Shown here: piece after piece, positions 43,701-59,654 of the stretch
Layout of the letters: every line of letters begins with the position of its first letter
Numbering within the stretch: the first letter of the stretch is position 1
Assembly: GCA_032622095.1 (NCBI GenBank)
Contig: CP136064.1
Coordinates: 172,554,310 to 172,618,309 of the forward strand
Direction of reading: 5' to 3'
Length of the DNA: 64,000 nucleotides
DNA from: Siphonodentalium dalli
Taxonomy: Eukaryota; Mollusca; Scaphopoda; Gadilida; Siphonodentaliidae
The notes under the pieces: generated by a model
The model's database searches: none
Seen by the model: only the letters and a program-made list of their open reading frames with translations
Told to the model about the DNA's origin: nothing
Made by a program: the position numbers and the translations under genes

Positions 43701-46700
43701 TACATTGGAGCTGATGCAGGACCATACCAGCATCAATGAGACCTGAAAACAATGAAGACGAATGTTATTTGATCTGCACATCAATGAGATTCAAGGAAAG
43801 ATCTAAACAAAATTATTTTGAATTGGAATATCATAGTCTTACGTTTTTCCCTTATCACAACATGAAAGTAGTTGAATATGGAAAGCAACCAATGACAAAG
43901 AGGGCAAAAAGTTCAGAAATGGGCACCCTTTTATGTCAGGGGTAAAGCATAAATGCCCAAAAGACATTATTTTGGGCACTTAAAATGCACATACATTTTA
44001 GGTCATTAAAATAAATACCTAAGTTCTCAGGCCATTATATATGAAAAACTTGGTGTGAGGGAGAGAGGCTTTTTATTTTTATTTCACCCCCCCCCCCCCA
44101 ACATAAATCTAGAAATTTATGAAGTAAAGATAATTTTATGGAATATAGATATTTGCATGAAAAGTTTTCCAAGTTATCTATTGAATCTCTCTGCCCGAGT
44201 GTTTTAGTCATTATGTCTTCAACAACAAGACAGTCGCTCACCTGATTGTAAAGACTGAGATGACTGGGACTCTGGAAGACCACAATAATCAGTACTTGTC
44301 AAAATCATGTTTATTTAATAAGTTCAACAAATGACTAGTATGATCATTTGTTATAACTTATTATCTCAACATTTCCTAGGGGATAACTACTCATCGATGA
44401 TGCTTCAGTATAGAAAGTGTTAAACAATATTCATTTGTACCCTCAATGAACAATTAGAATAATTTTTTAACAAATTTTGATTTGATGACATAGATTTTAT
44501 AATCAAAAAGGGTGAAGAAGATATAATAGTATTGTCTCAGGTAAGCTAAAATCCTCTCTAAATTTATAACTGTATATAATTGGTGTTGGAGTTTTGAACC
44601 ATTGCCATACTCCGGGCTGGATAAAAATAAACAAATAACTAAAGATAAATTAGAAATAAAATTGATGATGCATTTATTTGGCATTATTTTATTTGAACCC
44701 TATCTTTACTAAATGGATTCTCCCATTCATTTGAATAGTCTATTATTCATCTGGAGGGGTGTTCTAGAATTGTAAGCAGACAACAGACAGAACAAAATAA
44801 TATAAGTGCAGACGGATTTCTATTAATGGAAGGGAAATGTTCAGATAATAAGTTGACTACAGTAATTCGTTGAACTTATTATCTGAACACGTAGTCAACT
44901 TATTATCTGAACATTTCCTAAAGGAACTACTCGTCAATGAGTATTAGTAAAGAAAGAGTTATTGGAATAACACAATAATCAACAAACCTGGCTGTTTGAA
45001 CTCGTTGGGGATGATACATCTGACAAAGTGAGGATGAGTCGTGTACAAGTTCTTCATCAGCTTGTTCAATGATTCCTGAAAACATAACATTGCCATAAAC
45101 AAAGTGCACATTACTTCATTTTTTTTATAATTTATTTTTATTTTTCATAGTCTGTCTCAATTACATATTAAAGTTGTACATAATAAATATACATTAAACA
45201 TGAAAAAATAAATTCTTATAACAATATATCTATTATCACATGCACACTTGAATAATCTCTGTTTTTGAAACTTATCCTTTTTCTTGTTCTGTCTTATTAA
45301 ATTATCTATAGCATTTTTTCTTGCTAAAGTGTCATTTTGACAGTTATTCTTTTTTTAATTCAGTGCACATTACTTGTTATGAGTTTCGCATACTATATCC
45401 ATAAAGTTTGAGAGAAAATGTGACAAAGTACTTTGGCCTAAAATAGTCCAGACCCCCGCCCCTACTAATTTTATCAACCCTGTAAAAACATTTTTAAAAA
45501 CCAAAACCAAAACAATTGTGTTTATAAATCTCAGGTCATTGTAAAACTGTGCTGATCAGTCGACGATCTGCATTATTCACACTGGCAGTCAGGGCTTGAA
45601 AATAGTGGTGCCCCTGTGTACACGGGCCGGTTGATGTCGCGATAATTTTTTATTAAAAATACTACCAAGGTCCAAGGCTTCATTATCCCTTCCAATGCCT
45701 ACAGTAATGTAAGCCTAATAGTGAATATTTTCAACTGATGGTGTTGATATTTCCTGGACATATTTTGTGATTTATAATTTATCAAACCCTTTCTATACTA
45801 AATGGAGTCTCCCACTCAGTTATAACATTATATATTGGAATGATTTATTATTCATCTGGATGGATGGAGGAAATGAAGAAATAAGCAGGTATCCTTGGTC
45901 CCAGATAACATACATACCCTGTGAGTAGCTGAGATAGTTTGGAAAGCAGAACTCTTCTTCTGTTTCTTGCCGCCAGCACCAGTCTCAGCTTTAATATAAT
46001 ATAATGGGAAATGAGATTGGTCCCTGCATGAGATTTGTTCAGGTCAGAGATTATGAAACATTATAAGGCATTCTCCAAATATAATAAGTTATTGGTTTGT
46101 ATTCATAATTAATAAACTAGACATCACTTCTAAACTAAAGGCACTTTTAGGGTTTAAAGCAACAAAATTTATTTTTCAAAATTAGGTGACATTTTTTGAG
46201 TTAAAAAGTCACTACAACTCAATCCATCAGTATTTTAGTTCATAATAATATGGATATCCAGAAATACAAGTTTAACAAACAGTCTAAGAATGTTTATTTG
46301 AACATCCCATTGTCAAAGAATTAACCTCTTGGGTGCTATACATCCCTACTGAGTAAGGACGTAAAATTTTCACGCTGTGTGTTGTAAGTCCATACTGAGA
46401 ACAGACCTACTTCAGCACACTAGCAGTTGGCAATTTATCATAACTGGAACACAGAATTAGTGCATCGGAATGATGCCTTTAATAATCGACTCCTTATACC
46501 ACAGCAGAATTATGGGTAATATATCAGGATTTCGCTGAGAGCTTTCAGATGAATGGCAACAATCCATTTTCCGACTAAATCCTGAAAAATTACCCATAAT
46601 TCTGCTGTGGTTAAAGAATCAATTATTTAGGATATAACTGTATGATATGTACGTGGTTTTGTAAACAGCATAGATACTACAGGCTCCTTTGACTCTCCAA

Positions 46701-49700
46701 GAAGAGAGACAACTGTCTCATTGAGAGGGTCCTTGTTCTTGTCCAACCAGTTGGCAATACTGTAGTTAACCTGTTAATGATAAAAAAGAAGCTGCATTTA
46801 AAGATCTGTTAAAGATACCCCATCCAATTAGTATAAATTTCTTAAAGGGACACTGTACACTACCTCTAGCCATTTATAATTCTTTCAGAGCACATTCAAT
46901 GAGTGTATTTTGAACTAATCGATGGCTCAAATTCATTCATTTGTTGCATATATTATTTTGAGATGGTCCCATAAATGGCCGGATTAAATGTACAGTCCCC
47001 CTTTAAGACAATTTTCTGCTTATCAGGCAAAACAAAAAGAACAATACTTGCAATCACCATCATTTGAATGGCACATGCATCGCAAAAGTCCATAAATTCA
47101 TCCATCAGTAGTATGCTGTAAAACTAGTACAAAAGATCATAATTGAAAACGCTCTTGATTAAATACCACATATGGTGAAAAATAGCTCATAGACAATCTT
47201 TATCAGAGACAATCATTGGAATCTTTTACATCTCTGACAAAAATCCAACATGTTCTAAAAACTTTCTCTTTTGAATCTGACCTTCAATACCTCCTATTAA
47301 TGGGCTCATGAATACGATTAACCCTTCCATGGCTGGAGCTTCCTGAAATTTAGCTAAAACTCTGTGCCATTGCATTCTCTTATATATATATATGCGAGGC
47401 TCCCTATGAGAGCCTAACAATATTTACCTTGATCTTGTAAACCAGTGCGGTCTCTTGTTTATGCCAGGCAGCCTATGGGAGACTTGCATATATAAGAGAA
47501 ATGCACTGGCACAGGCTCTTTACTGCTGCGCTAGCGTAGCATCCCACCATGAAAGGGTTAATTTCTTAATGTTATAACTTACAGTTCCAGCATAGTGATG
47601 GAGAGCAAAGTGTGCATCACCGACACCCTGCTTCTGTTTGCCAGGCTTTCCAAAGTTCTCAGATTTTCCCATGTGGTTCTGGTACAATTTGTCCTGGAAA
47701 GATTTGTCTGTTGCTTTTGGGAACATGCATTCTTCTTCCAAGATGGATAAGATACCCAAAGGCTGTAAAAGAAATGAAAAATTGAGCATTATATGTTAAA
47801 AGGATATTTGGTGAGATATCAAAATGTCTACTCAGAATGTATAACAGTAAAATTGAAAGGGTGAATTCATTCACTAACAAAGGGTTGCATGAACTAAGAA
47901 CTTCAGACGATTATAGTCCTCAGTACATTTCTAATTAACTTCAGTAATGCCCTAAATAATGGACTCCTTAACCACACAAGAATTATGGGAAACTTTTCAG
48001 TATTTAGTTGGAAATATGACTTGTTGCCATTCATCGTAAAGCTCTCAGTGAGAGCTTTCCGATGAATGGCAACAAGCCATATTTCCGACTAAATCCCGAA
48101 AAATTACCCATAATTCTGCAGTGGTTAAGGAGTCGATTATTTAGGGCATTACTGTACAGTCTTCAGATTACACACCTTTTCAATCAAGTCAATGCAAGCC
48201 TGCAAGTCCATACCGAAGTCAATGAACTCCCACTGGATACCTTCCTTGGCATAACATTCCTGTTCCAGGACAAACATGTGATGATTGAAGAACTGTTGCA
48301 GTCGCTCATTGGTGTAGTTGATGCAAAGCTGCTCAAAGCTGTTAAACTGTAAAGAATAGACATCACACCTTTAAAGATGTATTCAGGATTCTCGGCTAAT
48401 TTTTCAGAAAAACTGTTTTACATTTTACTTAGATTCTAGTGCATAAAATATTTGAAATTTATAGATGTATACGTAATATTGGGTTTTCAACTTTTTATTA
48501 AAAATCAAAGCAGAACGTTGTTAAATTATTTTTTTTTAAGTTGCTCCGGTAATTGGTGATCTGGAACCTGAATACACAGTTATTGATGGCAACAGAAGTA
48601 AAGTTGATTCATAATTCACACAAAATGGAGTCTCATTGCACGAAACAAATGGATTTTGTTATAACAAGTTTATTTGCTTGGTATTTTATTTTAATTAACT
48701 TAATGTTCAAATGCCAATTTATTTATTTTCCAAGAAATCAATATTCAGTTTTATTCATGAACTGCATCATAGAGATAAAAATATACATTCAGCCAAGATT
48801 TAACTTCAAGTATTATCCTATAGTCCAAAATATAAAATAAAGATGCCTAGAAAAAACCAAACCATTTCTACTTACGTCAAAAATTTCAAAACCGGCAATA
48901 TCTAGTACACCAATGAAATAGTTTCTCTTGGCCTTGGTATCCAGAGTCTTGTTGATTCTGATGACAAGCCAGCGGAACATTCTGTCATAAGTGGATTTAG
49001 CCAGTGCAGAGATTGAATAGACAACCTGATCCTTGGTTCGGCCTTGTGTGACAAATTCATTTCCGACTTTGATCTTTGGCTTGAGTAGGCCTTTCACCAA
49101 GTCACCAGCATTGATTCCCATGAGGAAAGCAACCTTCTCTGACTCTATAAAGGGATAGATACAGTATTGTATTCACTATACAATAATAAAACTACACTAC
49201 AATGAATAGCAGTTCTTTTAGACAATTAAATGAGATAAAAGTAAACAGGAAGTGGGGTTAAAAAATTATGGTACCATCACAAAAGCTTACAATGTCCAAC
49301 TTGCAATTTTTCAGTTATTTGTGTGCGTGTTTATTATGGTTTCTCAATTCGGCCAAAGTTTCTGCAAATGGCCTAATAATTTCAGAAATGGCCATAAGAA
49401 TGTTCATGGCCAGTGTGAACCCTGCTCTCACCAAGCCTTCAAATAGTGTGCCTGTCATCTTGAAAATGAGGTTCCCAGAGGGTGAATTTAGTGATGCTAT
49501 CCCGCATGGGGGGGGGGGGGGCTAGCATCAACAAAGTCACCTTCTGGGAACCTCATTCTGCTTAGGCATCAACTGCTATGAGAGACCTAGGTTCAGATTG
49601 AAGCTCCCCAGTTGAAGTTGGTGATGTTCACCAATTATCACCTCGATTATGCATTTTATCTTCTGCTAATTAGTTGATATATAAAAAGGATATAGAAAAA

Positions 49701-52700
49701 GTAACTAAAAACAATGTTAATTTGAGACTATATATACTTCCCAGAAGATGAGGCCTAAGCAGAATGAGGTCCCCAGAGGCTCTCACCAAACACTACCACA
49801 ACTATAAACCAAACACTCTAACCACTGTGATCTCTGCAGATTTTAGTCCAGTACAACAATATGATTTAGATTTATTGGGGGGTTATCTTCGTTTCAGCCA
49901 TTAGACCATATCACGATGTCAGTTTTATGGGTGAAGGAAAGATCACAAAGGCGGTTAATAACACTGGGAAATAAATGCACCACACATAGAAAACACTGTC
50001 TTCAGGAAAGTAACTAAAAATCTGCTCAGATATATTATTTTTAAAAGTATAATACATTTTTCCTTAAAGAAAGCCTGAACACTGAACTATATGGATATAT
50101 GTCCTGCTTTGTAAACCACAGTAGGAAAGGGGTTAACTTTTTGGTCGCCTCTTGACGTCTATTGGCTTGCCCAGATTTAGTCACGCATGAACTGTCCAAA
50201 TATAACCGGATGTATGCGATGAGAATCGTTAGTTTTATTTCCGACTCAATCAGGAGATTGACAAGTTGCGGGGTTGGGAATGGCACCGCCATGGGAGGGA
50301 CTTATGATAGTTCTGTGTTCAGGCTTTCTTTAAGGAAAAATGTATCATACTTTTAAAAATAATATTTTTCCGCTAAAGGAAGCCTTTCACACTGAACTAT
50401 ATGGATTAGAATGCAAGCCCAGGAGGAGGCACGAGCAATAAAGTTAATAGCCAAAGTTAGAGGGAAATGTACTCTTCTAAACAGATTGCACATAAATATG
50501 AACTCTTAATGAATCTGTGTACCTCCCCCCTTGTTTTGGAAGACAGGTGTGTGAAACACAAAATTCAAAAAGATACGGCCCTTAGATCTTGTTGGCTTCG
50601 CAGTAGGAATAAAACTAACGATTCTCATCGCATACAGCCGGTTATATTGGGACAGTTCATGCGTGACTAATCTGGGCAAGACAATAGACGTCAGGAGGCG
50701 AACAAAAAGTTAACCCCTTTCCTACTGTGGTTTACAAAGCAGGATATATGTCCATATAGTTCAGTGTGAAAGGCTTCCTTTAGCGGAAAAATATGAATCA
50801 GGTTACCTTTTCTTTGCATGGATTACAAATCAGGTTATCAAGTTCCCTTTGCATGGATAAGATATCCATGCCTATCGGGAATCAAACCACTGAGTTTTCC
50901 AATTGTAGGAAGGCTGAGCCATGCAGCTCACCAACTTAGCCACCACTCCAAAGTGCAATGAAAGTGTCAATGAAACTGTAGCTCAACTTGGAGAAGGATA
51001 ATTTCATGTGTTACAGCCAATATGGAGTGATTAGGGACACGGAATTGTTAAATTTGATAGCTCCCAGCTAGAGGTGATGTTTTTTTTTTTTTAAATTTGA
51101 AAATATCGGAGGGTCTCATCTAGAGGTTATCCTGAAGATCCATATAAAGTTTGGTGACATTCGGATTAGAGATGTGACATGTAGAATGTGTGCAAGGATT
51201 TAGTGATGCAAATAGTAAATCCAAGATGGCCTCTGGCGACCATGATTTTTCAACAAAATTCGGAAAACATTGATAACTCCAATCTAATGGTCATCCCGAA
51301 GATCCATATGAAGTCTGGTAACAATCGGATGAGGGATGCTGTCTGTAGGGTGTGCCGAAGGATGCAAAGACGCAAAGAGTCAGCCATGGTTTTCATCGAA
51401 AATAGTTCAAATTTGATAGCTCCTGTCTAGAGGTGATCCTAAACATGCCTGTAAATTTTCAAAACAATTCTCCAATAAATGTGGGCTGCAAGGTGTGCTG
51501 ATGGATCCCATCGTGAGGTCACCCCCAAGATCCATAAGAAGATTGGTGATGATCGGATGAGAGATGTAACCTGTAGGGTGTGTGAAAGCAGGGTTTACGC
51601 TAGGGGGTAGGGGAATGGGGCCGGTAGCCGTCAAGGGGAAAAATCCAGGTAAAAGTAGCCTGTTTTAGCACTGGTTGAACTACTTTCGTTATATCGGCCA
51701 ATAGAATTGTGTGAGAGTAGAAATGGCAGATTGTTTTGTTCCATTTCTGCCCAAGTGCCAAGCTATCAAACCTTATATTACATGTACCTGTAACTTTAAA
51801 ACTTGTAAATTTATTAGATATAAATTAATTTACGAAGTACAGAACACCAGTAATTTGGATCCCGAGTTAAACGTGCTCGTTAATGTTAAAAGACTCACTG
51901 TGGAAGACCCAGCAGATATTTCGGATGCATAACGTAATCGGAATATATTTTAGCAGCTGCAGTGTAAATATAGAAGGCTGATTACATATCTGGCCGATGA
52001 GTATTCTTTGTGGGCAGTGGTAAGTTGCCTTGATGCCTGGTGCGGCTACTCCCACATTTCTCTCTCGCACTATTACAAAGTGAACAGTATATTTTGCGGT
52101 ATAAAACATGACAGGTACGATTAAAATACTGCTCTTTTGCATAACATAACCGGGTTCTAATCGCAACGTAACTAACCAGCCTCAAAGGCATACCTTCTAG
52201 CAATGTCAGTTCCGACCACTTCCTGTTTCAATTTTCAGTATAACAACGCGTTTAGAGTGTGTGCACTCACAAGATATAAAATAAATTCACCTTTTAAAAT
52301 TCCTTAGTACTATTCCAACAAAATTCAGAAGTTTTAAACATCTTTATACCTTTATAGACATGCAGTATGTCCTGGGGTATGGCATGAGGGGAAAACTTGG
52401 CGAGGGGAACGGGGCCGTCAAGGGGACCCCCTGCCGGTATAGCGGAAACCCTGGTGAAAGGATTTAGTTATGGAATTTTTTTTAACAAATTTCAGTAAAA
52501 ATAGGAGGCTCCCATCTCGAGGTCACCCCAAATATCAAGTTTGGTGATGCTCGGATTCACGAGAGATGTGATCTGTAAAGTTTACTAAAGGAAATTGTTG
52601 ACAAATCATGGATGCCCCAACACATGGATGCACAGACAGATGCCAACCCATAGCAATAGCTCAAACTTGACTTCATCAAGTTAAGCTAGCGATGGCTCAT

Positions 52701-55700
52701 TCAGCATTATATATGCCCAAACATACCAGCTGATCCGTCAGCCTCAGCCTGCTCTTCTCTTGGCCTCTGTTTGAATTTCATTTCTCCAAACTGAACAACA
52801 GCAGATGTAATCTTGTACATGCTTTGTTTTTCTTCCTTAGTGAAGCCCAGTACATCAAAGGCAGCCTATAAATGACATAAAGAAAACTCTTGTACAGTGA
52901 AACCTCTCCAAACCGCGGACCCTCTATAACTCGAATCCCTCTCAATACCAAGCAAATTGTCTAGTCCTGAATTCAACCAAGTGCATTCTCACTAAAAATT
53001 ACCTCTGTAAACCGGAACCTCTCTATTCCGAACATCAGATGGATTTTTTAGTCCATAGGTGCAAATTTATTAATTTTTACCTCTGAAATACAAACCCGGA
53101 AAGTGATACCAAATGAATGCGCATGCGGTAGATTTAACATACAGTAATGCCCTAAGTAATCGACTCCTTAAACACAGCAGAATTATGGGTAACTTTTCAG
53201 GATTTAGTCGGAAAGATGGCTTGTTGCCATTCATCGGAAAGCTCTCCCCTGAGAGCTTTCCGATGAATGGCAACAAGCCATATTTCCGACTAAATCCTGA
53301 AAAGTTACCCATAATTCTGCTGTGTTTAAGGAGTCGATTACTTAGGGCATTACTGTACTTGATGCTTGCAGAGCTCTTAAATTGTTGACTCTGGTGTAGA
53401 CTGGGGATCTTTTCTAAGTTTAAATTTCTGGTCTGAGGGGTTGTTTTCGTGATGGCTCATTCATTGTGATAGGTTGATTAAAACTGTATTGATGACAATA
53501 CACTACCATTGCTTACTTTGAGTGAATTAGTGTTTAGTTTGAGTCCAACTCGTAAAAACAAAGTGTCAGTGCTCTAATTCTCCATGTCGAGGTCACCATT
53601 GTTCACTCAATGTGTGAAATAAGCACACAGTTATCTAATCAAACACCTGATGTTATAATCTGTTCACCGAATAAGACCGCTAATTAAATCAGTACGCATA
53701 TACAAGAGTACAAAACCTGTGCTACTATATCAGCGACATTTAAAAAAAAATGCGAATCGCTGTAAAGTTTATCACTTCCATGTTTCCTGTTTTATCTATG
53801 CTTGCATTATGTCTTATTAATTATACTACGTTTTAATTCTTATTATACCTGATTATACCATGTTTTATCTATTGTTATTATATTTTATTTGGTGATTTAT
53901 TGAACGAAGTTAATTAATCAATAATGATTTGGCTGTGCTTCGACAATGCTTAGTAATGACGGCAATAGATTCCGATCATAGTGCGATTTTCTATAAACCG
54001 AACACCTCTAAACCAAACAGAAGGTGCGGTCCGAAGGGTGTTCGGTTTGGAGATGTTTTACTGTAGTCAAAGGAGAAAAATTATCTGTATTGAATTCTAC
54101 ACAAAATTCAATATTTTCTGTTTACAAACAAAACAAGTTTCCTGAGAAGCGGGGGAACCTTATAGTGAACTTTTCCCACCAATGAATAGGATTCTTCTGC
54201 ACTTGTATTATCTGTTTTTCTGTCTGTCATCTGCTTATTTTTCTTGAACATCCCTCAGGATGAATAATTGACCATTCCAATGTGTACTTTTATAACTGAA
54301 TGAGAGAATTCATTCAGTAATTTAAAGAAAGTGTTATTGTAATCTCTCACAGGTTGGGCTTTCTGAAAATTTTAGGAGAACGATTTACCAAGGAGTGAAA
54401 TTGCTCCATGGACCCTCCAAATTCTTATACAAATGATCTAATGTTGAAGTTGGTTAAAAAAAGAATTATATCTAAAGGTTCACTTAATGTTTGAAAACCC
54501 AGGTCACATTATATACAACATATTATATACAGTAATGCCCTAAGTAATCGACTCCTTAACCACAGCAGAATTATGGGTAACTTTACAGGATTTAGTCGGA
54601 AATATGGCTTGTTGCCATTCATCGGAAAGCTCTCCCCTGAGAGCTTTCCGATGAATGGCAACAAGCCATATTTCCGACTAAATCCTGAAAAGTTACCCAT
54701 AATTCTGCTGTGTTTAAGGAGTCGATTACTTAGGGCATTACTGTACTTGATGCTTGCTGAGCTCTTAAATTGTTGACTCTGGTGTAGACTGGGGATCTTT
54801 TCTAAGTTTAAATTTCAACAAGCCATATTTGGGAGAATCCATTCAGAAGCCATATTTGGGAGAATCCATTCAATATAGAAAGGATTAAAGATTTTGAACT
54901 CACATCAGTGATTTTCATTTCATCGACATCATCAATTCCATCGACAATCATTGTTCCTTGGTTGATATTGGAGTAAAGTCCAGGATCAGCTTGGATCAAG
55001 GCCACCTCTGGAAAATATAAGTGTCAAATGCAACAGTCAAACAAAAATAATACCAGAGAAGTAGCATATAAGTGGCGCGCACTTGTTCTTCAATCCTGTT
55101 GCCGAATGTGTGTATTTATATGCATATATTGCAAATAAATATGTTTAAACGAAACCAGAGATTGAGAAGCTTGAATGCTGAATAATACTACAAAGAGTCT
55201 ATGACATTGGTCTGACATTTTGTGTGGGCAGCGAAAGATTCATAAATCTTACATGAATGGAATCAGTAGATGTTTGTTCAAGTTATCGCGATAATGGTCA
55301 TAAAATTGCAAACAAAATAAACAAACTGAGGGCCATAATTTTGAATTCATAAGTCAGGTCAAAATATCGGACAAACCTGGTTTTCAAACACAATCAAGAT
55401 ATTGTTGTGAAGGGGTCACATATCAAATATGAATGGAATCAGTTGACATTTGTTAGAGTTATCATGCTAACGGTCATAAATATTTTCTGAAAATAGACAA
55501 ACTGAGGGCCGGAACTCTGGGTAAACAAGGGTTGCACACCAAAGATGGTGCTTGTCGAGTTTTTTTGCCTATAAGAGTGAATAGATCTGTCGAACCAATA
55601 ATCACTAAAAATGGACGAACAAAGGAGTCATAACTCAGAACTATTGGTCATAAACTCAGATAAAGCTAGGAAATAAATGGATGGTATATGGTTGAGTTAT

Positions 55701-58700
55701 CGCAATAAATGGCTGAAAAATAGACAAACTAAGGGCCATAAGCCAGCTTGAGTTATCGTGTGCTTAAGTTCATAAAAATGGTTCTCCCAGTAAGTTCCAC
55801 AACTATACTTGTACATGTATTGAAATACTCCATTTTTCATTTGTAGGGCTTTCAGATACTTTAAGCAGTCTACAGGCAGAGAAAATTTCTTAAGGATTCA
55901 TATGTAGGTTGATGTTTGTTCAAGTCAACAAGCTAACAGTCATAAAAGTGCTAAAAATAGAAACAAAGGGCTATAAGTCAGGTAAACAAAATGAGACAAA
56001 CCCGGTTTTGAATTCGATCGAGATATTGTTGTGAAAGCTTCATATATCAAATATGAATGTAATCGGTGGACGTTTGTTCAAGTTATTTCGCTAACGGTCA
56101 TAAAATTGTTAAAAATAGACAAACTAGTAATTCAGGTAAAATAAATTGGATACATCTGATATTTTAAGTTGACCGAGATATTGTTGTGAAAGATCCATAT
56201 ACCAAATATGAATGAAATTGGTTGACATATGTTCATGTTATCCGCTAACGGACATAAATTTCCTAAAATTGCTAAAAAAAAATAGACGAACTAATGGCCA
56301 TAAGTCAGGTAAAAAAATCAGACAAATCTGATTTTCAAACTTGGCTAAGATATTGTTGTGAAAGATCCAAATTTGTTAACATTTGGTGAAGTTATCACAA
56401 TAACGAATATAAAAATGCTATAAATAAAAACAAGTGCCATAACTCTGGTTAGAAAGTCGAGGCAGAACCAATTTTATGTGTGCAGCTGTCGCACATGACA
56501 ATAAACTCAAATGCCAAAATTCATCAAACTGCCAAAATCCATCAATAAATGCCATGTCATAAAGTTTTAGGGCCACCAGCCAGCTCAGTTGCCACTGCAA
56601 CCGTCCCTCATCAAACCGTAAGTCAAGATTTGATTAGAACAAATTCAACTAAGAAATCGGACAAACCTAGTTTTCGAGTTGAGGTATAAGTTCAAGTGGG
56701 GGGTATATTTACCATGTATGGCAGGAATAGTGGGGGTATATTTACCATGTATGGCAGGAATAGTGGGGGTATATTTACCATGTATGGCAGGAATAGTGGG
56801 GGTATATTTATCATGTATGGCAGGAATAGTGGGGGTATATTTACCATGTATGGCAGGAATAGTGGGGGTATATTTACCATGTATGGCAGGAATAGTGGGG
56901 GTATATTTACCATGTATGGCAGGAATAGTGGGGGTATATTTACCATGTATGGCAGGAATAGTGGGGGTATATTTACCATGTATGGCAGGAATAGCTGATG
57001 AACAGATCTGGTAGAAAATATGGTAGTTCCTCTCAGCTGGCTGCTGGTAGGTAACACGCGATTTCTCCAGCAGGTCTGAAATGATAAATTAGTTCATTAT
57101 TAGACCATGAAAACATTTCACCCATATGCCAAATTTGGACCTCGATCTGAGGTGTATCCTAGATAGTGATGTGGACCGGACCGCAAATACCAGTCCACGG
57201 CTGTACTGGGGACTGGCTGTACTGGCTGACTGGGGACAGGACCACCCCTTCTGGACCAGTCCAGTGCGAGCTGGACCGGTCCGGTCCAGACTATATATAT
57301 GTATGTATATATGTATGTGACTTCAACATGTATCCTGTTGTCTGCTGTTGTGTCTTGAGATTTTGTCAGATTTCAAATGCTGCTAAATGAAAATTGGGAC
57401 AAATTTCCCTTACAAGTTACCTTCATCTTCAGTATTGACACTAAGAGTCTAAGATTATTAATTGTTATTTTTGTTTCTGTTTTTGTAACGATACAGTTAT
57501 ATAATAACACAATTAATTGGTCTGATAAAACATTTCCATGACCCAATGAGTCAGTAACCAACCAATGTTGGAAATATGTCAAACATATTATTTTATTATC
57601 TGCCAGGGTGAAAGGTGTCATGTTCCCGACCTGGAAAGTATATTCAACCTCGCTGCTGGGGCGTGGCTCGGTTGAATATAATTTCCAGGCCGGGAATATC
57701 ACAAAATGTACCCTGGCAGGAAACAGAATAACCTGTACTGTTAAAATAAAAATCTTGCCACCAGAATGTTGTCATGAAAAGCAATGCACATCTTTAAATG
57801 CCTAAAATACACAACAACAATAGTAAATCATCTCTAAAAGTTTATATTCAAAGTATGTATTGGGTTATTGCAGTGCCACCTTGTTAACTGCGGCAAGCAA
57901 TGCTACAAATACTGTTTGAGCACCTAATTTAGATATAGTGAACTAAATTTTCCCTGTTTATGATGAACACTTTGCTAATAGAGTAATCCATAAAACATGT
58001 AAGTGGACCGGACCAGAATGGCCTGGACTAGACCGGACTGGACCACCTAGTTAATAGACCAGACCATCTATGGTGGTCAGGTACGCATCACTAATCCTAG
58101 GAGACGACGAAAAAAAATTCATGCTGATTGGTCAATGAAAATCTGAAATCAAACATGTTGTCTGAAGTTTGTAAAAATCTTTCCCCCCCCTTACCATTGC
58201 TAAACAGAGTTGCAACACTAGCATCCAAACATTGGAAAGTTTATTTTAATTTTCAACATACTTTATGAAATCACAATCACAATATTAACAGTAAACGTTT
58301 ACCATCATGTGCACAATATTTTATTTGAACAGTGACATGGGTTTGTTCTGCCAATTTATAATATTGAGCCCAATTTTTAATACTTATTTGACTATTTATC
58401 ACATATTAATTTCTCAAACCTTTACCCGCTACTTTAATAATTAAAAGACCCTCAAGGCACTCGTAACAAGTACTCAGTGAATAAAAAGTTATTTATATTC
58501 CGTCGTTCAAATGGTAACATGTGAGAATTCCAGCATATTAACAAATATATAATCTAAAAATATACTTGATTCTCCAAAATTTTACTTATTACGGTATCTG
58601 CTAGAAAATGTATGCCAAGTGTTACAAGTAATGGTTTTCTTTGTTGAAAATCAAAAAAAATATTGTAGAGCGACTTGAGTGCAGCCATAGCTTCTGTAAA

Positions 58701-59654
58701 TAAGTTAATGAGGAAATATGCAGTGCCCTCATCTGACCATAATCTACAGTAATGCCCTAATTAATCGACTCTAACCACAGCAGAATTATGGGTAACTTTT
58801 CAGGATTTAGTCGGAAATATGGCTTTCCGATGAATGGCAACAAGCCATATTTCCGACTAAATCCTGAAAAGTTACCCATAATTCTGCTGTGGTTAAAGAG
58901 TTGATTAATTAGGGCATTACAGTATGTTGTCTGCATTTTAGAGTTATATTATTTGTGACAAATTGCGGTGTTTGTTGACTGATGTTACAGTTGACGTTAA
59001 CAAACAATTGTTTCAACATGTATCTGATCACTCCAGGATTATTGATCTTCATGTTCTAGTTGGTAGTAATGATTTAAAGACATATTATGTACTTGTTCAG
59101 GAGCGTGAAACTGATAAGTTATTATCCAGGCGCTATGCCAACTGGAGGAATGTAGCATTATACTAACATCACCAAAATTTTGAAGCAAATCGACCGTTCC
59201 ACTCCATAGAAAACGTTGTCTGAACTATGCTCAAATGTAAATATTTACTACTCGATTCGGGACGCTTCTATCGGCGATAAACTAACGAAAATGATTTCGC
59301 CATCGAGAGTCACTGCATTTAATTAATATATAAGAATGACGGTGTGTGTTGTCAATTTGGATATAATATTTGTAGAAATTACTACTTTGAAAAAAATTAT
59401 TCTCCATTTGTTTGATTATCCTACCGGAGTGTTTCACATCACTTTAACAATCTTTGTATGATTTTCAGCTGTACCCACTATGAACTTAGGATAGTTATAG
59501 TATTCATTATAGTATGTCAATCCCTGCTTATTGCAGATGAGCGTGGACACAAATTAAAATTAAAAAATAACTATCCTTTCAAATACTTACAAACTTCAAT
59601 GTCAGCACCAGCAATCTTTCCTTGTGGCCCAAAATGGATTCGGATGAATTTACC
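16737..59654 (-). CDS. Muscle myosin heavy chain gene (5'-partial, 32 exons in window)
   Basis: This span covers the exons listed separately below plus their introns. The spliced product is the actin-based motor of muscle thick filaments, with an ATPase head, a lever arm binding two light chains, and a coiled-coil rod. About 1,685 residues are visible (numbered here from the first visible one). Motor residues are 1-560, the IQ/light-chain region is about 540-587, and the rod is 588-1685 (about 1,098 residues, the usual length for muscle myosin II). Visible landmarks are switch II DIAGFE (217-222), a lysine-rich loop 2 (389-393), SH2 and SH1 cysteines (448, 458; spacing 10 as in the family) and the WQWW light-chain hook. 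All junctions keep frame with GT-AG sites. Missing at the 5' end (beyond 64000) are about 245 residues including the P-loop. Family identity is certain. The mollusc assignment is inference. No specific paralogue name is claimed. Confidence 0.97.
16757..17065 (-). repeat. Dispersed family E, copy abutting the last myosin intron's end
   Basis: This copy is inverted relative to 59140-59450 and 37673-37932 (shared: actccatagaaaac, aaatatttac, gaaaatnatttcgccatc, gtgtttcacatcacttt). Its end lies within ~15 bp of the predicted acceptor at 16743, so the polypyrimidine/branch region of that intron is partly repeat-derived. Confidence 0.75.
17229..17660 (+). mobile_element. Two SINE copies of a second tRNA-like family
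   Basis: A 5'-truncated copy (17229-17330) and a fuller copy (17525-17655) share caaggc(g/a)cgctcgcc(g/a)tcg, the B box ggttcgcatccc, and accacccaatctcaaaaa-type 3' tails (tttgcattgtctca, tcaaatttgcttct). The fuller copy has an A-box-like tggccgtgtggtattgacgtc. Both lie in the last myosin intron. Translations here are artefacts. Confidence 0.75.
17823..17963 (-). CDS. Myosin exon v31: end of coiled coil
   Basis: Residues 1638-1684 ([20 protein letters not shown]...[10 protein letters not shown]), 47 codons, phase 0. This is the final heptads plus the start of the non-helical tailpiece ([10 protein letters not shown]). The donor GTAAGT follows CAACCA. Reading through the donor continues VSTKVDIWF..., which is unlike known tailpieces, so splicing onward is expected. 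Confidence 0.96.
18659..18900. mobile_element. TTAA-flanked (piggyBac-like) MITE with hairpin core
   Basis: It runs TTAACCCTTTGAGTGCCA ... TGGCACTCAAAGGGTTAA, with near-perfect 14-bp inverted ends (CCCTTTGAGTGCCA) and TTAA duplications. The inner palindrome ccaatgcattatcttatata ... tatataagagaatgcattgg is at 18712-18778. TTAA targets with CCCT-like ends are characteristic of piggyBac-type elements. Confidence 0.85.
18960..19125. repeat. Dispersed family D foldback fragment
   Basis: It contains ccctttctatatactaaatactc, ttaggaaatgttcaact and the inverse gaacatttcctaagg. Related pieces occur near 35860-36360, 44300-44430, 44700-44960, 45780-45870, 54160-54320 and 59725-59960, mostly inside myosin introns. 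Confidence 0.55.
19270..19395 (-). mobile_element. SINE head fragment (minus)
   Basis: The minus strand reads gtccggtcactcagttggtaaggtgc ... gcgaagctggttccagatcc in two pieces, matching the A/B-box head of the 5165 SINE. It lies 25 bp from exon v30's donor side. Confidence 0.65.
19420..19620 (-). CDS. Myosin exon v30: distal LMM, filament assembly region
   Basis: Residues 1571-1637 ([20 protein letters not shown]...KRQMEEA), 67 codons, phase 0. [15 protein letters not shown] and RR-KEL-Q-DED-K matches the region that carries the assembly-competence segment in other muscle myosins. The donor is GTAAGT. Confidence 0.97.
20142..20187. repeat. 15-bp x 3 tandem repeat
   Basis: cagtgacttggtggc is repeated three times in the intron between v29 and v30. 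Confidence 0.95.
20525..20764 (-). CDS. Myosin exon v29: LMM rod
   Basis: Residues 1491-1570 ([20 protein letters not shown]...EIAKLETR), 80 codons, phase 0. [20 protein letters not shown] and [20 protein letters not shown] are distal rod signatures. The donor is GTAAGT. Confidence 0.97.
21892..22023 (-). CDS. Myosin exon v28: LMM rod
   Basis: Residues 1447-1490 ([20 protein letters not shown]...QAMS), 44 codons, phase 0. [10 protein letters not shown] and GRVNELTA are conserved. The donor is GTAAGT. Confidence 0.96.
22776..22904 (-). CDS. Myosin exon v27: LMM rod
   Basis: Residues 1404-1446 ([20 protein letters not shown]...MTLEQ), 43 codons, phase 0. [10 protein letters not shown] matches the conserved MAERR turn. 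The donor is GTATGT. Confidence 0.96.
22984..23087. mobile_element. Family A half copy
   Basis: Only the left arm is present (cagttataccctaaataatc ... ccattcatcggaaag). It cannot form the palindrome. Confidence 0.8.
23260..23645. mobile_element. Family B double-palindrome element
   Basis: It begins aagcctgcaaatagtgtgtc and ends ggacccaatatttgcagact, with agaatgaggtccccagaggg and its inverse accctctggggacctcaatc inside. It sits just downstream of exon v27's acceptor side and 32 bp short of exon v26's donor. Confidence 0.8.
23677..23869 (-). CDS. Myosin exon v26: LMM rod
   Basis: Residues 1340-1403 ([20 protein letters not shown]...KKAQQQCR), opening with the last base of Arg1339. The junction rebuilds [15 protein letters not shown], present in all muscle myosins. 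The donor GTATGT follows CAATGCAGG. Confidence 0.97.
24637..24738. mobile_element. Family A miniature derivative (102 bp)
   Basis: Both ends are intact (cagtaatgctctaaataatc and its inverse, TA-flanked), but the central arms are deleted. It is still a snap-back. Confidence 0.88.
24827..25067 (-). CDS. Myosin exon v25: LMM rod
   Basis: Residues 1260-1338 ([20 protein letters not shown]...DDFENT) plus two bases of Arg1339. [13 protein letters not shown] and [14 protein letters not shown] are diagnostic light-meromyosin motifs. The donor is GTAAGT. Confidence 0.97.
25130..25540. mobile_element. Family B pieces
   Basis: agaatgaggtcccagagggt at 25145 and its inverse near 25210-25235 form one palindrome, followed by a second fragment at 25441-25540. 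They lie in the intron upstream of exon v25. Confidence 0.65.
25607..25778. mobile_element. Family A palindromic MITE, shortened
   Basis: cagtaatgccctaaataatc ... ttatttagggcattactg, TA-flanked, arms meeting at ttgccatacaa. Confidence 0.9.
26116..26332 (-). CDS. Myosin exon v24: LMM rod
   Basis: Residues 1187-1258 ([20 protein letters not shown]...RRENKNLS) plus one base of Asp1259. [20 protein letters not shown] is conserved. EESLRREN-NL precedes the DEIHDL skip region. The donor GTAAAA is weaker than the other donors in this gene. Confidence 0.96.
26705..26905. repeat. ~95-bp tandem duplication
   Basis: ggagatattggttccaag ... accgaatagacatgt ... tttgttgacaacacagg occurs twice in tandem in the v23-v24 intron, preceded by an inverted piece (accaatatctcccgagg). 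Confidence 0.8.
27219..27917. mobile_element. hAT-like non-autonomous element, exact 8-bp TSD
   Basis: Inverted ends are CAGGGTTCGCGCTG and CAGCGCGAACCCTG, flanked by CTTTGTAA on both sides (27211-27218 and 27918-27925). An 8-bp duplication and CAGGG ends fit hAT transposons. There is no transposase frame. It lies in the v23-v24 intron. Confidence 0.92.
28299..28431 (-). CDS. Myosin exon v23: rod coiled coil
   Basis: Residues 1143-1186 ([20 protein letters not shown]...MVDCER), opening with the last base of Lys1142. [20 protein letters not shown] is the family motif (canonical SLEKTK-RL--E-ED). The donor is GTAAGA. Confidence 0.96.
28553..28765. mobile_element. Family A palindromic MITE
   Basis: Full-length TA-flanked copy, arms meeting at gctctcggggagagc, in the v22-v23 intron. 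Confidence 0.92.
29757..29953 (-). CDS. Myosin exon v22: rod coiled coil
   Basis: Residues 1077-1141 ([20 protein letters not shown]...EELEDS) plus two bases of Lys1142. [17 protein letters not shown] and [13 protein letters not shown] are strongly conserved in muscle myosins. The donor GTGCGT is an uncommon but valid 5' site. Confidence 0.96.
30263..30354. mobile_element. Family A miniature derivative (92 bp)
   Basis: Both ends are kept, the arms are deleted inward of gcagaatt/aattctgc, and it is TA-flanked. A second independent short form beside the 102-bp one. Confidence 0.88.
30825..31084. mobile_element. TTAA-flanked MITE with two hairpin cores
   Basis: ttaacccttccatgactgaa ... gctcccgtcatgaaagggttaa, with TTAA both sides. 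Two tandem palindromes of the gcattctcttatatatgcga type lie inside (near 30878-30940 and 30972-31030). Confidence 0.85.
31180..31384. mobile_element. Family A palindromic MITE
   Basis: Full-length TA-flanked copy. The right arm lacks the gctgtggtt piece. It ends 21 bp from exon v21's low edge. Confidence 0.9.
31406..31651 (-). CDS. Myosin exon v21: rod (hinge/LMM side)
   Basis: Residues 995-1076 ([20 protein letters not shown]...HQLEEESR), 82 codons, phase 0. KQMESQINE and [20 protein letters not shown] correspond to conserved rod sequence. The donor is GTAAGA. Confidence 0.97.
32448..32526 (-). CDS. Myosin exon v20: short rod exon
   Basis: Residues 969-994 ([20 protein letters not shown]...), opening with the last base of Lys968, 26 codons. 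The acceptor is gatctctag and the donor is GTATGT. It lies 102 bp downstream (on the minus strand) of a hAT-like element. Confidence 0.94.
32629..33148. mobile_element. hAT-like non-autonomous element, exact 8-bp TSD
   Basis: Ends CAGGGTCTGCGCTGG and CAGCGAGAACCCTG are inverted, flanked by CTTCATGG on both sides (32621-32628, 33149-33156). Inside are short tandem tttgccaaatnatttcagaa repeats. It lies in the v19-v20 intron. Confidence 0.92.
33312..33624. mobile_element. Family A MITE with ~110-bp centre insertion
   Basis: TA-flanked ends are present. Between the arms, unrelated sequence (about 33418-33510) separates gaaagctctc from gagagctttc, so the palindrome has an unusually long loop. Confidence 0.85.
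33797..33963 (-). CDS. Myosin exon v19: rod coiled coil
   Basis: Residues 913-967 ([20 protein letters not shown]...QKAKA) plus two bases of Lys968. NKKRE-EL-KLRR-LEE and [12 protein letters not shown] are family motifs. The donor is GTAAGT. Confidence 0.97.
34426..34512 (-). CDS. Myosin exon v18: short rod exon
   Basis: Residues 884-912 ([20 protein letters not shown]...), 29 codons, phase 0. [13 protein letters not shown] matches the conserved EAGGAT segment of the S2 rod. The donor is GTATGA. Confidence 0.96.
34980..35400. mobile_element. Family B double-palindrome element, full
   Basis: Two palindromes (centres near 35065 and 35320) with the family spacer between them (tttgcagaagataaaatgca ... 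tgaacatcaccagcttcaac). It lies in the v17-v18 intron. Confidence 0.8.
35586..35733 (-). CDS. Myosin exon v17: S2 coiled coil
   Basis: Residues 835-883 ([20 protein letters not shown]...ESERAVRSK), opening with the last base of Arg834. It contains the [19 protein letters not shown] heptads. About 850 residues remain from here to the C-terminus, so this is close to where the catchin/myorod product of other bivalves joins the shared rod. The donor is GTGAGT. Confidence 0.96.
36482..36627 (-). CDS. Myosin exon v16: S2 coiled coil
   Basis: Residues 786-833 ([20 protein letters not shown]...DGAR) plus two bases of Arg834. [10 protein letters not shown]..DLEKxKRK is a near-universal myosin rod signature. 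The donor is GTCAGT. Confidence 0.96.
36796..36900. mobile_element. Family A half copy
   Basis: The left arm only (cattaatgccctaaataatc ... cattcattggtaag), inside the 337-bp v15-v16 intron, which it nearly fills. Confidence 0.8.
36965..37174 (-). CDS. Myosin exon v15: S2 coiled coil
   Basis: Residues 716-785 ([20 protein letters not shown]...KLESTLDD), 70 codons, phase 0. [18 protein letters not shown] is the conserved S2 motif. The acceptor is tttgaag and the donor is GTGAGT. Confidence 0.96.
37673..37932 (+). repeat. Dispersed family E, copy 2
   Basis: ccactccatagaaaacatcg ... gtgtttcacttcactttaat matches 59198-59450 in the same orientation and 16757-17010 inverted. It lies in the v14-v15 intron. 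Confidence 0.8.
38045..38428 (-). CDS. Myosin exon v14: head-rod junction and S2 start
   Basis: Residues 588-715, 128 codons, phase 0. It starts [10 protein letters not shown], the invariant proline at the head-rod junction, and then runs as charged heptad coiled coil ([20 protein letters not shown]..., [16 protein letters not shown]) forming proximal subfragment 2. It is the longest exon in the gene. The donor is GTATGT. Confidence 0.97.
38457..38903. mobile_element. TTAA-flanked MITE, two hairpin cores
   Basis: ttaaccctttacccaacaaa ... gttgggtaaagggttaa with TTAA ends. The palindromic core tgcattctcttatatatgcg / cgcatatataagagaatgca is present twice (about 38612-38680 and 38808-38876). It lies in the v13-v14 intron. 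Confidence 0.88.
39560..39880. repeat. Diverged ~130-bp tandem repeat
   Basis: About two and a half copies of a unit carrying aacttgacctgtattttgtgctagaaaacccacataccaaattt-like sequence (seen in pieces) and ttactaaagctat/ttactaacgttat. The style matches the 55.2-56.5 kb repeats. It lies next to exon v13. Confidence 0.6.
39899..39980 (-). CDS. Myosin exon v13: regulatory light-chain IQ and hook
   Basis: Residues 561-587 ([20 protein letters not shown]...), opening with the last base of Arg560. VIQRNIRKW is IQ2, and [10 protein letters not shown] is the hook gripped by the regulatory light chain, the Ca2+ switch site in molluscan myosin (established for scallop). The donor is GTATGA. Confidence 0.96.
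40376..40790. mobile_element. Family B double-palindrome element, full
   Basis: It starts gcctgtcatctgcagaatga and ends aagacacaccattttaaggc. Palindrome centres are near 40435 and 40715, with the common spacer between. It lies in the v12-v13 intron. Confidence 0.8.
40905..41162 (-). CDS. Myosin exon v12: converter and first IQ motif
   Basis: Residues 475-559 ([17 protein letters not shown]...MNFKKLFDQ) plus two bases of Arg560. It contains the converter, the KVFFKAG strand and the essential light-chain IQ ([16 protein letters not shown]). [14 protein letters not shown] departs from the usual LEEMRDERLSK, giving a more acidic neck junction. The single exon corresponds to the alternative converter exon 11 set of Drosophila. 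The donor is GTATGT. Confidence 0.96.
41855..42366. repeat. 256-bp tandem duplication
   Basis: tccctaggctttgaatgtac starts at 41855 and tccctaggctttgagtgtac at 42111. The two units are near identical throughout (acctcgcgcatgacattctc/acctcccgcatgacattctc, gataaatttttttcgtgggg/gataaacattttttgtgggg). It lies in the v11-v12 intron. Confidence 0.93.
42533..42777. mobile_element. TTAA-flanked MITE, single hairpin core
   Basis: Same ends as 38457-38903 (ttaaccctttacccaacaaa / gttgggtaaagggttaa) but with one, partly deleted core. Target duplication TTAA. Confidence 0.88.
43254..43440. mobile_element. Family A, truncated and rearranged copy
   Basis: The left end lacks the tgccctaa segment. The right arm runs into a second gggtaacttttcaggatttt piece instead of the normal end. 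Confidence 0.8.
43625..43742 (-). CDS. Myosin exon v11: SH1/SH2 helices
   Basis: Residues 436-473 ([20 protein letters not shown]...RIIYSEFKQ), opening with two bases of Gly435 and ending with two bases of Arg474. It contains the reactive cysteines SH2 (C448 in LQCNGVLEG) and SH1 (C458 in [10 protein letters not shown]). The donor is GTCAGT. Confidence 0.97.
44988..45075 (-). CDS. Myosin exon v10: actin-binding helix, [10 protein letters not shown]
   Basis: Residues 406-434 ([20 protein letters not shown]...EFKQP) plus one base of Gly435. [12 protein letters not shown] is near-invariant in muscle myosins. The acceptor is ttttcag and the donor is GTTTGT. Confidence 0.96.
45918..45988 (-). CDS. 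Myosin exon v9: actin-binding loop 2
   Basis: Residues 383-405 ([20 protein letters not shown]...), opening with two bases of Pro382. Glycine-rich then lysine-rich loop 2 (KKQKK at 389-393) is the surface loop that contacts actin's acidic N-terminus. [12 protein letters not shown] is the conserved start of the 20K domain. In scallops this region is alternatively spliced, but only one version is visible here. The donor is GTATGT. Confidence 0.94.
46470..46641. mobile_element. Family A, degraded copy
   Basis: aataatcgactccttatacc ... aaagaatcaattatttagga, with arms shortened at centre. It ends 12 bp from exon v8's donor edge at 46653, so the donor's downstream flank is transposon sequence. Confidence 0.82.
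46653..46770 (-). CDS. Myosin exon v8: lower 50K, leads into loop 2
   Basis: Residues 343-381 ([20 protein letters not shown]...MLFTKP) plus one base of Pro382. [14 protein letters not shown] is the family motif. The donor GTACAT was chosen because it is the only nearby GT giving the phase needed by the next exon. The result, [16 protein letters not shown], aligns with molluscan loop 2. An earlier GT after GAGCCT would break frame. Confidence 0.85.
47318..47561. mobile_element. TTAA-flanked MITE
   Basis: ttaacccttccatggctgga ... ccaccatgaaagggttaa. Same family as 30825-31084. The inner cores are partly decayed. It ends 22 bp from exon v7's low edge. Confidence 0.85.
47583..47762 (-). CDS. 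Myosin exon v7: lower 50K domain
   Basis: Residues 283-342 ([20 protein letters not shown]...[10 protein letters not shown]), 60 codons with phase 0 at both ends. It contains the [14 protein letters not shown] helix, the [10 protein letters not shown] segment and the conserved HYAG turn. The donor is GTAAGT. Confidence 0.97.
47942..48154. mobile_element. Family A palindromic MITE next to exon v6 donor
   Basis: Full-length copy ending at 48154, 22 bp beyond exon v6's 5' splice site on the transcribed strand. The arms are about 100 bp and nearly perfect, meeting at gctctcagtgagagc. Confidence 0.92.
48176..48346 (-). CDS. Myosin exon v6: relay helix
   Basis: Residues 226-282 ([20 protein letters not shown]...CIDLIEK), exactly 57 codons with phase 0 at both ends. 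This is the relay helix and loop that couples switch II to the converter, equivalent to Drosophila alternative exon 9. Position 256 is Cys and 258 is Ala ([10 protein letters not shown]), where most muscle myosins have EQEEYKKEGI. The donor is GTGTGT, and a mariner-like palindrome ends 22 bp beyond the exon edge. Confidence 0.97.
48876..49144 (-). CDS. Myosin exon v5: 50K domain and switch II
   Basis: Residues 137-225, opening with two bases of Glu136. The exon contains [20 protein letters not shown], the [11 protein letters not shown] helix, [20 protein letters not shown] and switch II DIAGFE (217-222), which contacts the gamma-phosphate. It ends at EIFD in phase 0. The donor is GTAAGT. Confidence 0.97.
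49440..49790. mobile_element. Family B element, one full palindrome plus half
   Basis: agcctgt/tcatcttg...aatgaggttcccagagggtg, a poly-G centre (49510-49521), and aaccttctgggaacctcatt-like inverse, then the spacer and a half second module ending agaatgaggtccccagaggc. It lies in the v4-v5 intron. Confidence 0.75.
50044..50800. mobile_element. ~750-bp foldback element with ~190-bp arms
   Basis: The left arm (50050-50245: aaagaaagcctgaacactga, ccacagtaggaaaggggtta, gattctcatcgcatac inverse) is inverted at 50605-50795 (acgattctcatcgcatacag ... acaaagcaggatatatgtcc ... aaggcttcctttagcgg). A partial extra arm copy lies at 50300-50410. It lies in the v4-v5 intron. Confidence 0.85.
50875..50950 (-). 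mobile_element. tRNA-like SINE head fragment
   Basis: The minus strand carries gtggctaagttggtgagctgc (A-box-like) and ggtttgattcccgat (B-box-like) with tRNA spacing. No cloverleaf-quality stems were traced. Confidence 0.55.
51589..52453. mobile_element. hAT-like element, 865 bp
   Basis: Ends CAGGGTTTACGCTAGGGGG and TATAGCGGAAACCCTG are inverted. Flanks share GTGAAAG (7 bp) directly next to each end. It is embedded in diverged tandem repeat DNA (gatgcggatgagagatgtaacctgt-like units at 51040-51590 and 52460-52600). No transposase frame. Confidence 0.8.
52727..52865 (-). CDS. Myosin exon v4: upper 50K domain
   Basis: Residues 90-135 ([20 protein letters not shown]...[20 protein letters not shown]) plus one base of Glu136. 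The FDVLGFT and [15 protein letters not shown] motifs are hallmarks of muscle myosin heads. The acceptor is tttatag and the donor is GTATGT. Its 5' side intron holds duplicated palindromes. Its 3' side intron is the largest complete one in the gene (3,582 bp). Confidence 0.96.
53142..53430. repeat. Family A MITE plus flank, first copy of a duplicated block
   Basis: Palindrome at 53142-53355 followed by cttgatgcttgcagagctct ... tctaagtttaaatttc. The same palindrome variant and same flank recur at 54530-54820, 1,388 bp away. Confidence 0.9.
54530..54820. repeat. Family A MITE plus flank, second copy of the duplicated block
   Basis: Palindrome at 54530-54743, then cttgatgcttgctgagctct ... ctaagtttaaatttc. 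Nearly identical to the 53142 block, so the pair arose by segmental duplication and not by two insertions. Confidence 0.9.
54904..55007 (-). CDS. Myosin exon v3: upper 50K domain
   Basis: Residues 56-89 ([17 protein letters not shown]...KITD), opening with two bases of Glu55. The acceptor is ttccag and the donor is GTGAGT. This exon is positionally equivalent to the alternative exon 7 set of Drosophila Mhc, which lines the nucleotide pocket entry. Only one version is seen here. Confidence 0.95.
55220..56470. repeat. Diverged ~170-bp tandem repeat, ~7 units
   Basis: Recurring landmarks: attgttgtgaaagatccatat, accaaatatgaatg(a/g)aat, ggttgacatatgttc, gttatc-ctaacggtcataaa, aatagacaaactgagggcc and taagtcaggtaaa. 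It fills the v2-v3 intron between exon v3 and the 33-bp array. Confidence 0.75.
56695..56993 (-). repeat. 33-bp x 9 minisatellite spanning the exon v2 splice donor
   Basis: Nine near-identical 33-bp units run without gaps. On the minus strand each unit contains TATTCCTGCCATACATG followed by GTAAATATACCCCCAC. The first unit (56977 upward) is the genuine exon end and donor, and the other eight lie in the intron. The unit with its donor near 56806-56811 carries ATAAAT instead of GTAAAT, so its GT is lost. Units are stop-free in the exon frame (11 codons, [11 protein letters not shown]). Confidence 0.97.
56977..57075 (-). CDS. Myosin exon v2: motor, ends inside a minisatellite
   Basis: Residues 23-54 ([20 protein letters not shown]...IPAIH) plus one base of Glu55. 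The acceptor is tttcag and the donor is G|GTAAAT. The last ~17 exon bases and the donor are one unit of a nine-copy, 33-bp tandem array that continues into the intron (see the repeat at 56695-56993). The junction lies where the upper 50K domain exposes a loop before the segment equivalent to Drosophila Mhc exon 7. Confidence 0.95.
57164..58093. mobile_element. hAT-like element, 930 bp, TAGTGATG ends
   Basis: Starts TAGTGATGTGGACC and ends ...GTACGCATCACTA (inverse). Flanks are ATCCTAGA and ATCCTAGG (8-bp duplication, one mismatch). Sub-terminal zones are packed with ggaccggac/gtccggtcc motifs. A nested palindrome is at 57600-57719. It lies in the v1-v2 intron. Confidence 0.88.
57600..57719. 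repeat. Nested 120-bp foldback
   Basis: ctgccagggtgaaaggtgtc ... cctggaaagtatattcaac pairs with gttgaatataatttccaggc ... ccctggcag. The loop is ctcgctgctggggcgtggctcg-like GC-rich sequence. It lies inside the hAT-like element. Confidence 0.88.
58747..58922. mobile_element. Family A palindromic MITE, shortened centre
   Basis: cagtaatgccctaattaatc ... gattaattagggcattacag. The arms meet at tatggctttccgatgaat, lacking one half of the inner stem. Confidence 0.88.
58960..59450 (+). repeat. Dispersed family E, longest copy, with an open frame
   Basis: A + frame (58963-59166) ends ...[13 protein letters not shown]-stop. The minus-strand copy at 17030-17080 encodes a matching [11 protein letters not shown]-stop, so the family includes the 3' end of some coding sequence plus ~280 bp after it (to the gtttcacatcactttaac end). 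I do not recognise the protein. It may be a transposon or retrocopied gene end. Confidence 0.5.
59591..59654 (-). CDS. Myosin exon v1: motor, just after switch I
   Basis: Residues 1-21 ([20 protein letters not shown]...) plus the first base of Tyr22. This segment follows the switch I NNNSSRF motif in all myosin II heads. The acceptor ends ttctcag and the donor is GTAAGT. The exon starts in phase 0. The preceding exon, expected to end ...SSRF, is not found up to 64000, so the upstream intron exceeds 4.3 kb. Confidence 0.95.

Follow-up and report, generated by a model that had tools for sequence, protein, structure and literature searches.

The host myosin gene

The window, a 64,000-nucleotide stretch of the Siphonodentalium dalli genome, carries on its minus strand a muscle myosin II heavy chain gene whose motor, neck and rod exons are open and conserved, with exon ends placed by hand (Table 1). 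When scallop myosin is used as the query, tblastn returns 17 HSPs for motor and neck, which are collinear along the minus strand and reach from the N-terminal head (75250-75417) to the neck (39896), coordinates such as 75250-75417 running past the end of the window into L021/L022. Rod-like open frames follow the neck, and the rod is known from these open frames only. Scallop residues 1-57, 165-174 and 198-209 have no tblastn match within the 84 kb that surround the gene. Comparison of the 90-residue exon at 49145-48876 with solved myosins ranks 3i5f first with 145 bits and scallop second with 141; we take 3i5f to be squid myosin, and the first entry that, judged by its name, is presumably not from a mollusc scores 125 bits. 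A search of the PDB with the 32-residue exon returned nothing at E values up to 1, and a longer scallop stretch was used in its place. Relative to the neighboring Mhc gene at C4:172.78-172.80 Mb, we obtained dN 0.156 and dS 1.82 (ratio 0.086, 504 codons), and relative to that at C4:172.47-172.49 Mb, dN 0.159 and dS 1.51 (ratio 0.105, 367 codons), the ratios being rough because dS is near saturation. Rough as they are, with dN/dS at about 0.1, these values show that the gene is under purifying selection.

Table 1. Features of the myosin gene and of the repeat array at the end of one of its motor exons
Feature	Position	Strand	Basis or remark
Minisatellite, nine 33-bp units, each of 18 exon-end and 15 intron-start bases	56698-56994	-	TRF and unit-by-unit cut
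Preceding motor exon, 64 nt, donor TTT|GTAAGT	59591-59654	-	tblastn with scallop myosin, splice context
Motor exon, 99 nt, ending at the ancestral donor	56977-57075	-	2 bases complete a codon at the start, 1 begins a codon at the end: (Y)…(E)
Intron containing units 2-9, 1969 nt with the first donor used	55008-56976	-	
Next motor exon, 104 nt, begins (E), acceptor TTTTCCAG	54904-55007	-	tblastn, splice context
Further motor and neck exons and rod start (outer limits approximate)	37943-52865	-	tblastn, open frames, dN/dS
Exon-proximal (ancestral) donor ATG|GTAAAT, unit 1	56971-56979	-	Joins in frame to 55007
Extra donors, units 2-5	56839-56946	-	Last exonic bases 56944, 56911, 56878 and 56845 (+33, +66, +99 and +132 nt)
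Dead donor ATG|ATAAAT, unit 6	56806-56814	-	Would be the +165 nt rung
Extra donors, units 7-9	56707-56781	-	Last exonic bases 56779, 56746 and 56713 (+198, +231 and +264 nt)

Neither exon flanking the array has a second copy in the window, tblastn at E values up to 10 giving one match for each. The next motor exon is 57% identical to its scallop counterpart and is more diverged than most motor exons of the gene; together with the exon end PAIH, this makes both sides of the array junction look unusual.

Structure of the array

TRF reports the minisatellite at 56699-56994 with a period of 33, 9.0 copies, 99% matches and a score of 585, which ranks third among the 28 TRF rows of the window. Cut from 56994 downwards, the array resolves into nine minus-strand units of the form CTATTCCTGCCATACATG|GTAAATATACCCCCA in an unbroken 33-bp register, unit 1 being the myosin exon end proper and units 2-9 lying inside the intron. 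Both the scallop tblastn matches and this unit-by-unit cut bear out the original prediction that a myosin motor exon here has tandem copies of its own 5' splice site. The nine-fold register of exon end, donor and intron start was likewise described correctly, but the division of each unit into about 17 and 16 bases was not, the actual figures being 18 and 15. Only two differences exist among the units. One is an internal substitution in unit 6 (56829-56797), which turns the G at intron position +1 into A, and the other is terminal, unit 9 ending as CCCCCCACTTG with C instead of A as the last base. The GT donor, which had been ascribed to every unit, is therefore present in eight of the nine, and seven extra donors, rather than the eight originally counted, follow the exon-proximal one because unit 6 has ATAAAT. 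Given that the units are nearly identical, the array is probably young.

A search of the 2.2-Gb genome, some stretches of which were masked as N, with a 30-base core of the array, allowing up to three mismatches, gives nine matches, all of them within the array, and none for the reversed-pattern control; the array is not a product of chance. At the same threshold, the genome so searched holds no copies outside the array that would mark the unit as a dispersed repeat or mobile element. Near-identical units are prone to mis-sizing, and an assembly artefact or an inflated copy number might be suspected for this reason. Such an error is nevertheless highly improbable given that the array, at 297 bp, is far below ordinary long-read length, that there is no N in the surrounding 84 kb, and that unit 6 has a substitution of its own.

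The exon boundary in paralogous loci

The muscle-type Mhc exon is present in at least 22 copies in this genome, window gene included. Eleven of the copies are found near C4:274.2-275.6 Mb (L008, L011-L020) and are mostly near-identical over the exon, and others lie at C4:158, 172, 221, 223, 289 and 292 Mb and at C5:211 Mb. For Lottia, seven Mhc genes in tandem, one of them partial, are described (PMC3912159). The counts given here are of copies of one exon, not of genes, and the 21 paralogues omit four loci with other myosin classes (L027, L028, L029 and L031) as well as L030, which is not a myosin exon.

In 20 of 20 paralogue loci the exon ends at the identical codon and in the identical phase, and in L032 it ends one codon later. 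The boundary, defined as the last 8 exon and first 4 intron bases, is single in all 21 loci (243-580 intron bases each), and the array is present in one of the 22 exon copies read (window gene, the 20 loci and L032). Moreover, joining the first donor to the acceptor at 55008 yields a product that aligns gaplessly with scallop CSNAIPELN|DVMLVTPDSGLY, the scallop counterpart across the junction being CSNAIPELN-D-VMLVTPDSGLY. Taken together, the paralogue boundaries and this gapless junction show that the exon-proximal donor, at 56977, is the ancestral one. The array itself appears to have arisen in this copy of the myosin gene, because its core, at up to three mismatches, is found only here and the boundary is single in the 21 paralogue loci. 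Judged by eye, the other myosin classes (L027, L028, L029 and L031) and L032 differ in length at the junction by about 1-2 residues, and this near constancy suggests that long inserts would be costly.

Donor strength and RNA folding

The repeated donor is of ordinary to weak strength. Ranked by its pairing with U1 (-5.3 kcal/mol), ATG|GTAAAT is 8th among the 16 donors of the gene, and on a consensus scale (score 65) it is 13th of 16, these ranks including the uncertain donor 46653. The energy needed to open unit 1 is below that for units 2-5 in all four folding frames, by about 0.3 to 2 kcal/mol (for example, 5.67 versus 6.77-7.25, and 4.05 versus 4.36-5.11), in a comparison that leaves out the reference donor 47572. 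In three of these frames, however, unit 7 opens more easily than unit 1, and in one frame unit 9 does, so that the opening energies are weak evidence. The fold of the array has a z score of -1.79, and 5 of 100 shuffled sequences are as stable. We rejected masking of the donors by RNA structure, since this z score and the small gaps in opening energy are too weak. The units of the minus-strand RNA contain CCAUACAUGG and GGUAAAUAUACC, which would permit pairing between units and a 4-bp hairpin at each GT donor, although the signal is weak.

In vitro, the intron-proximal member of a set of identical competing donors is reportedly preferred, a rule said to go back to work by Reed and Maniatis in 1986 and by Eperon in 1993. 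Were it to operate at this locus, splicing would start mainly from the last donor (56713), and an 88-residue insert would be present in the mature myosin. Intron-proximal donors are activated by SRSF1, which would act in the same direction, and intron-distal donors by hnRNP A1 (PMC5585400). We nonetheless regard such dominance as very improbable, since at this site the 21 paralogue exons and the four exons of other classes stay within about two residues of one another (by eye) and the rest of the gene is under purifying selection.

Consequences for the reading frame

All of the GT donors share the same phase, and each unit adds 11 codons without a stop (ORF 57088-56648), as had been foreseen, although this agreement carries little weight because the 33-bp unit is open in two of its three frames. 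Read-through past all donors would meet a TGA just after 56648. An insert of six or more units would include one variant 11-residue copy, the rest being identical. Each unit contains one GT, and AG is absent, also when units stand in tandem, so the inner units can be alternative 5' splice sites at most and never extra exons. With a prior of one third for a period divisible by three and two of three frames open, the in-frame property is no proof of coding selection; the two conditions together amount to roughly a one-in-five coincidence. The idea that an open frame or a multiple of three betrays selection was accordingly dropped.

These properties bear on the proposal that the array is a functional ladder, in which use of the inner donors is regulated, the 11-residue inserts tune the motor beside the nucleotide site, and length varies among alleles. 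We take the next motor exon to be the homologue of Drosophila exon 7. If it is, the inserts would be followed by an exon near the ATP-binding site (PMC2257972), and alternative exons are in use in mollusc myosins (PMC3912159). The conservation of the gene and the in-frame, stop-free unit are also in keeping with a function of this kind. However, the array is found in only one of the 22 exon copies and is apparently very young, most frames of the unit would be open regardless, one inner donor has already been lost, and other myosins vary by only about 1-2 residues at the site (by eye), all of which make regulated use of the ladder distinctly unlikely. We consider it quite improbable that, as a length-variable minisatellite, the array gives rise through an in-frame series of donors to motors with 0-8 extra 11-residue copies, never exactly 5, near the nucleotide-binding region, and that allele length and splicing factors jointly set the distribution of isoforms, in which the +165 nt rung would be missing.

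Comparison with known systems

Alternative splicing has been reported at a VNTR in the human CBS gene. By its name, c.1444_1467+7(16_21), this 31-bp VNTR comprises 24 coding and 7 intron bases present 16-21 times (PMC2630376). As in the array described here, its unit spans the last coding and first intron bases, which places copies of a 5' splice site one after another (PMC2630376). The 33-bp unit, with its 18 and 15 bases and a GT in eight of nine copies, likewise combines exon end, donor and intron start. There are nine units in Siphonodentalium dalli, however, compared to 16-21 in the CBS alleles (PMC2630376), and a step of 31 bp changes the frame whereas one of 33 bp keeps it; the two repeats also lie in different genes and phyla. 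Moreover, CBS length varies between people, while the Siphonodentalium dalli array is known from one assembly alone. In the open-licence literature consulted, no other VNTR that carries a donor was found, which does not imply absence in print, nor was any paper found that brings together myosin heavy chain, minisatellite, splice site and intron.

The CBS repeat also raises the prospect that competition among donors cuts correct splicing or expression, the effect worsening as units are added, in which case the array would be mildly harmful and kept by redundancy. A 2001 study by Lievers, to go by its title, reportedly links the CBS VNTR with reduced activity, which we count in favor of such a burden. 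Near-identical donors do stand in series here, in a layout that matches that of the CBS repeat (PMC2630376), and the units can pair together, as the array fold suggests. The fold signal is weak, however, and decay of extended mRNAs is unexpected with a step that keeps the frame, unlike that of CBS, so we think a burden of this kind unlikely.

Mollusc Mhc genes are known for tandem multiplication and for mutually exclusive exons (PMC3912159), and the array is a case of neither. Like the clusters of such exons in mollusc and arthropod Mhc genes (PMC3912159, PMC2257972), the array offers a possible route to motor variants from one gene. It differs from them in that donors are repeated rather than whole exons, that it appears young, and that the number of units would set protein length, cluster exons being of similar length. 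A mutually exclusive exon cluster was rejected as a description of the locus, each exon around the array having a single tblastn match at E values up to 10. In intron 4 of DOK7, adjacent donors are rivals for U1, and the protein depends on which of them is chosen (PMC5585400). That case involves two unlike donors 11 nt apart and a frameshift, whereas the array has eight same-sequence GT donors in 33-nt steps, with one missing, that keep the frame.

Placement of the array and its probable origin

The 84 kb around the gene contain 37 TRF arrays, which cover 4.5% of it. When these were placed at random in 20,000 trials, 71% of the trials had at least one array overlapping any of 34 exon edges, and placing only the three arrays with scores of at least 500 gave an overlap in 34%, compared to one overlap observed; the exon edges were typed by hand and several are approximate, that of 47572 being about 11 bases off. 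We therefore dropped the position of the array as meaningful in itself. Minisatellites with periods of 22-45 lie close to the paralogue exon in at least nine of the 21 loci (L005, L006, L009, L010, L011 and L014-L017). L009 has one with a period of 33 bp, and in L011 and L014-L016 a 32-bp array closely precedes the acceptor. None of the 21 loci repeats the donor boundary. This pattern fits a passenger repeat, and where repeats are this frequent a donor-spanning array is to be expected now and then by chance placement. Intron arrays of the paralogues occur at L009 149-255, L010 407-661, L011 1-129, L014 682-742, L015 679-815 and L016 669-779, with periods of 32-38 and, in one case, of about 109.

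The function that the original prediction had offered, a source of isoforms or a buffering of splicing, is not supported as stated in view of the single affected copy among 22, the 71% and 34% chance placements, the one-in-five frame coincidence and the CBS precedent. The anatomy is true and uncommon, and it most likely represents a young repeat that is carried as a passenger by one myosin copy among many. In terms of splicing, we hold it reasonably probable that the array is a recent and tolerated repeat, that the exon-proximal donor is dominant, and that the ladder of inner donors is minor at most. The 3' end of the motor exon would first have been spanned by a tandem duplication, whose two ends probably met at a short CT common to both. 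Slippage or unequal exchange would then have raised the number of units to nine, with the 5' splice site carried along as a passenger of the repeat. Nearly all mRNA would then most likely still be made from the exon-proximal donor, which should be favored because the gene is under constraint and changes in length seem to be poorly tolerated at the site. Use of an inner donor would insert one to eight 11-residue copies (not five) at about scallop position 297/298, and any true splicing ladder must skip +165 nt since unit 6 lacks a donor. Low-level inner use, adding 11 or 22 residues, may be expected as splicing noise and would presumably be tolerated because at least 21 other copies of the muscle-type exon exist in the genome. 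Three points count against this explanation, however: the in vitro rule reported for identical donors would favor long inserts, the middle to low rank of the first donor leaves context alone as its advantage, and units 7 and 9 are easier to open than unit 1 in some folding frames.

The locus offers a natural test of how the spliceosome chooses among eight same-sequence donors in series, with the dead unit as a built-in control, and of whether additions of 11 residues at a time are tolerated by the myosin motor at this junction. Silent inner donors would show how firmly exon context sets the choice of donor, and inner donors in use would mean a myosin whose length follows a minisatellite.

Other repeats are present in the window. 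A dispersed repeat, perhaps the remnant of a mobile element, occurs in introns at 54512-54814, 53073-53456, 43267-43464 and 58760-58948. Two stronger arrays, at 41855-42368 and 1223-1994, have periods of 256 and 286 bp and scores of 923 and 803, and lie clear of the motor exon edges as placed.
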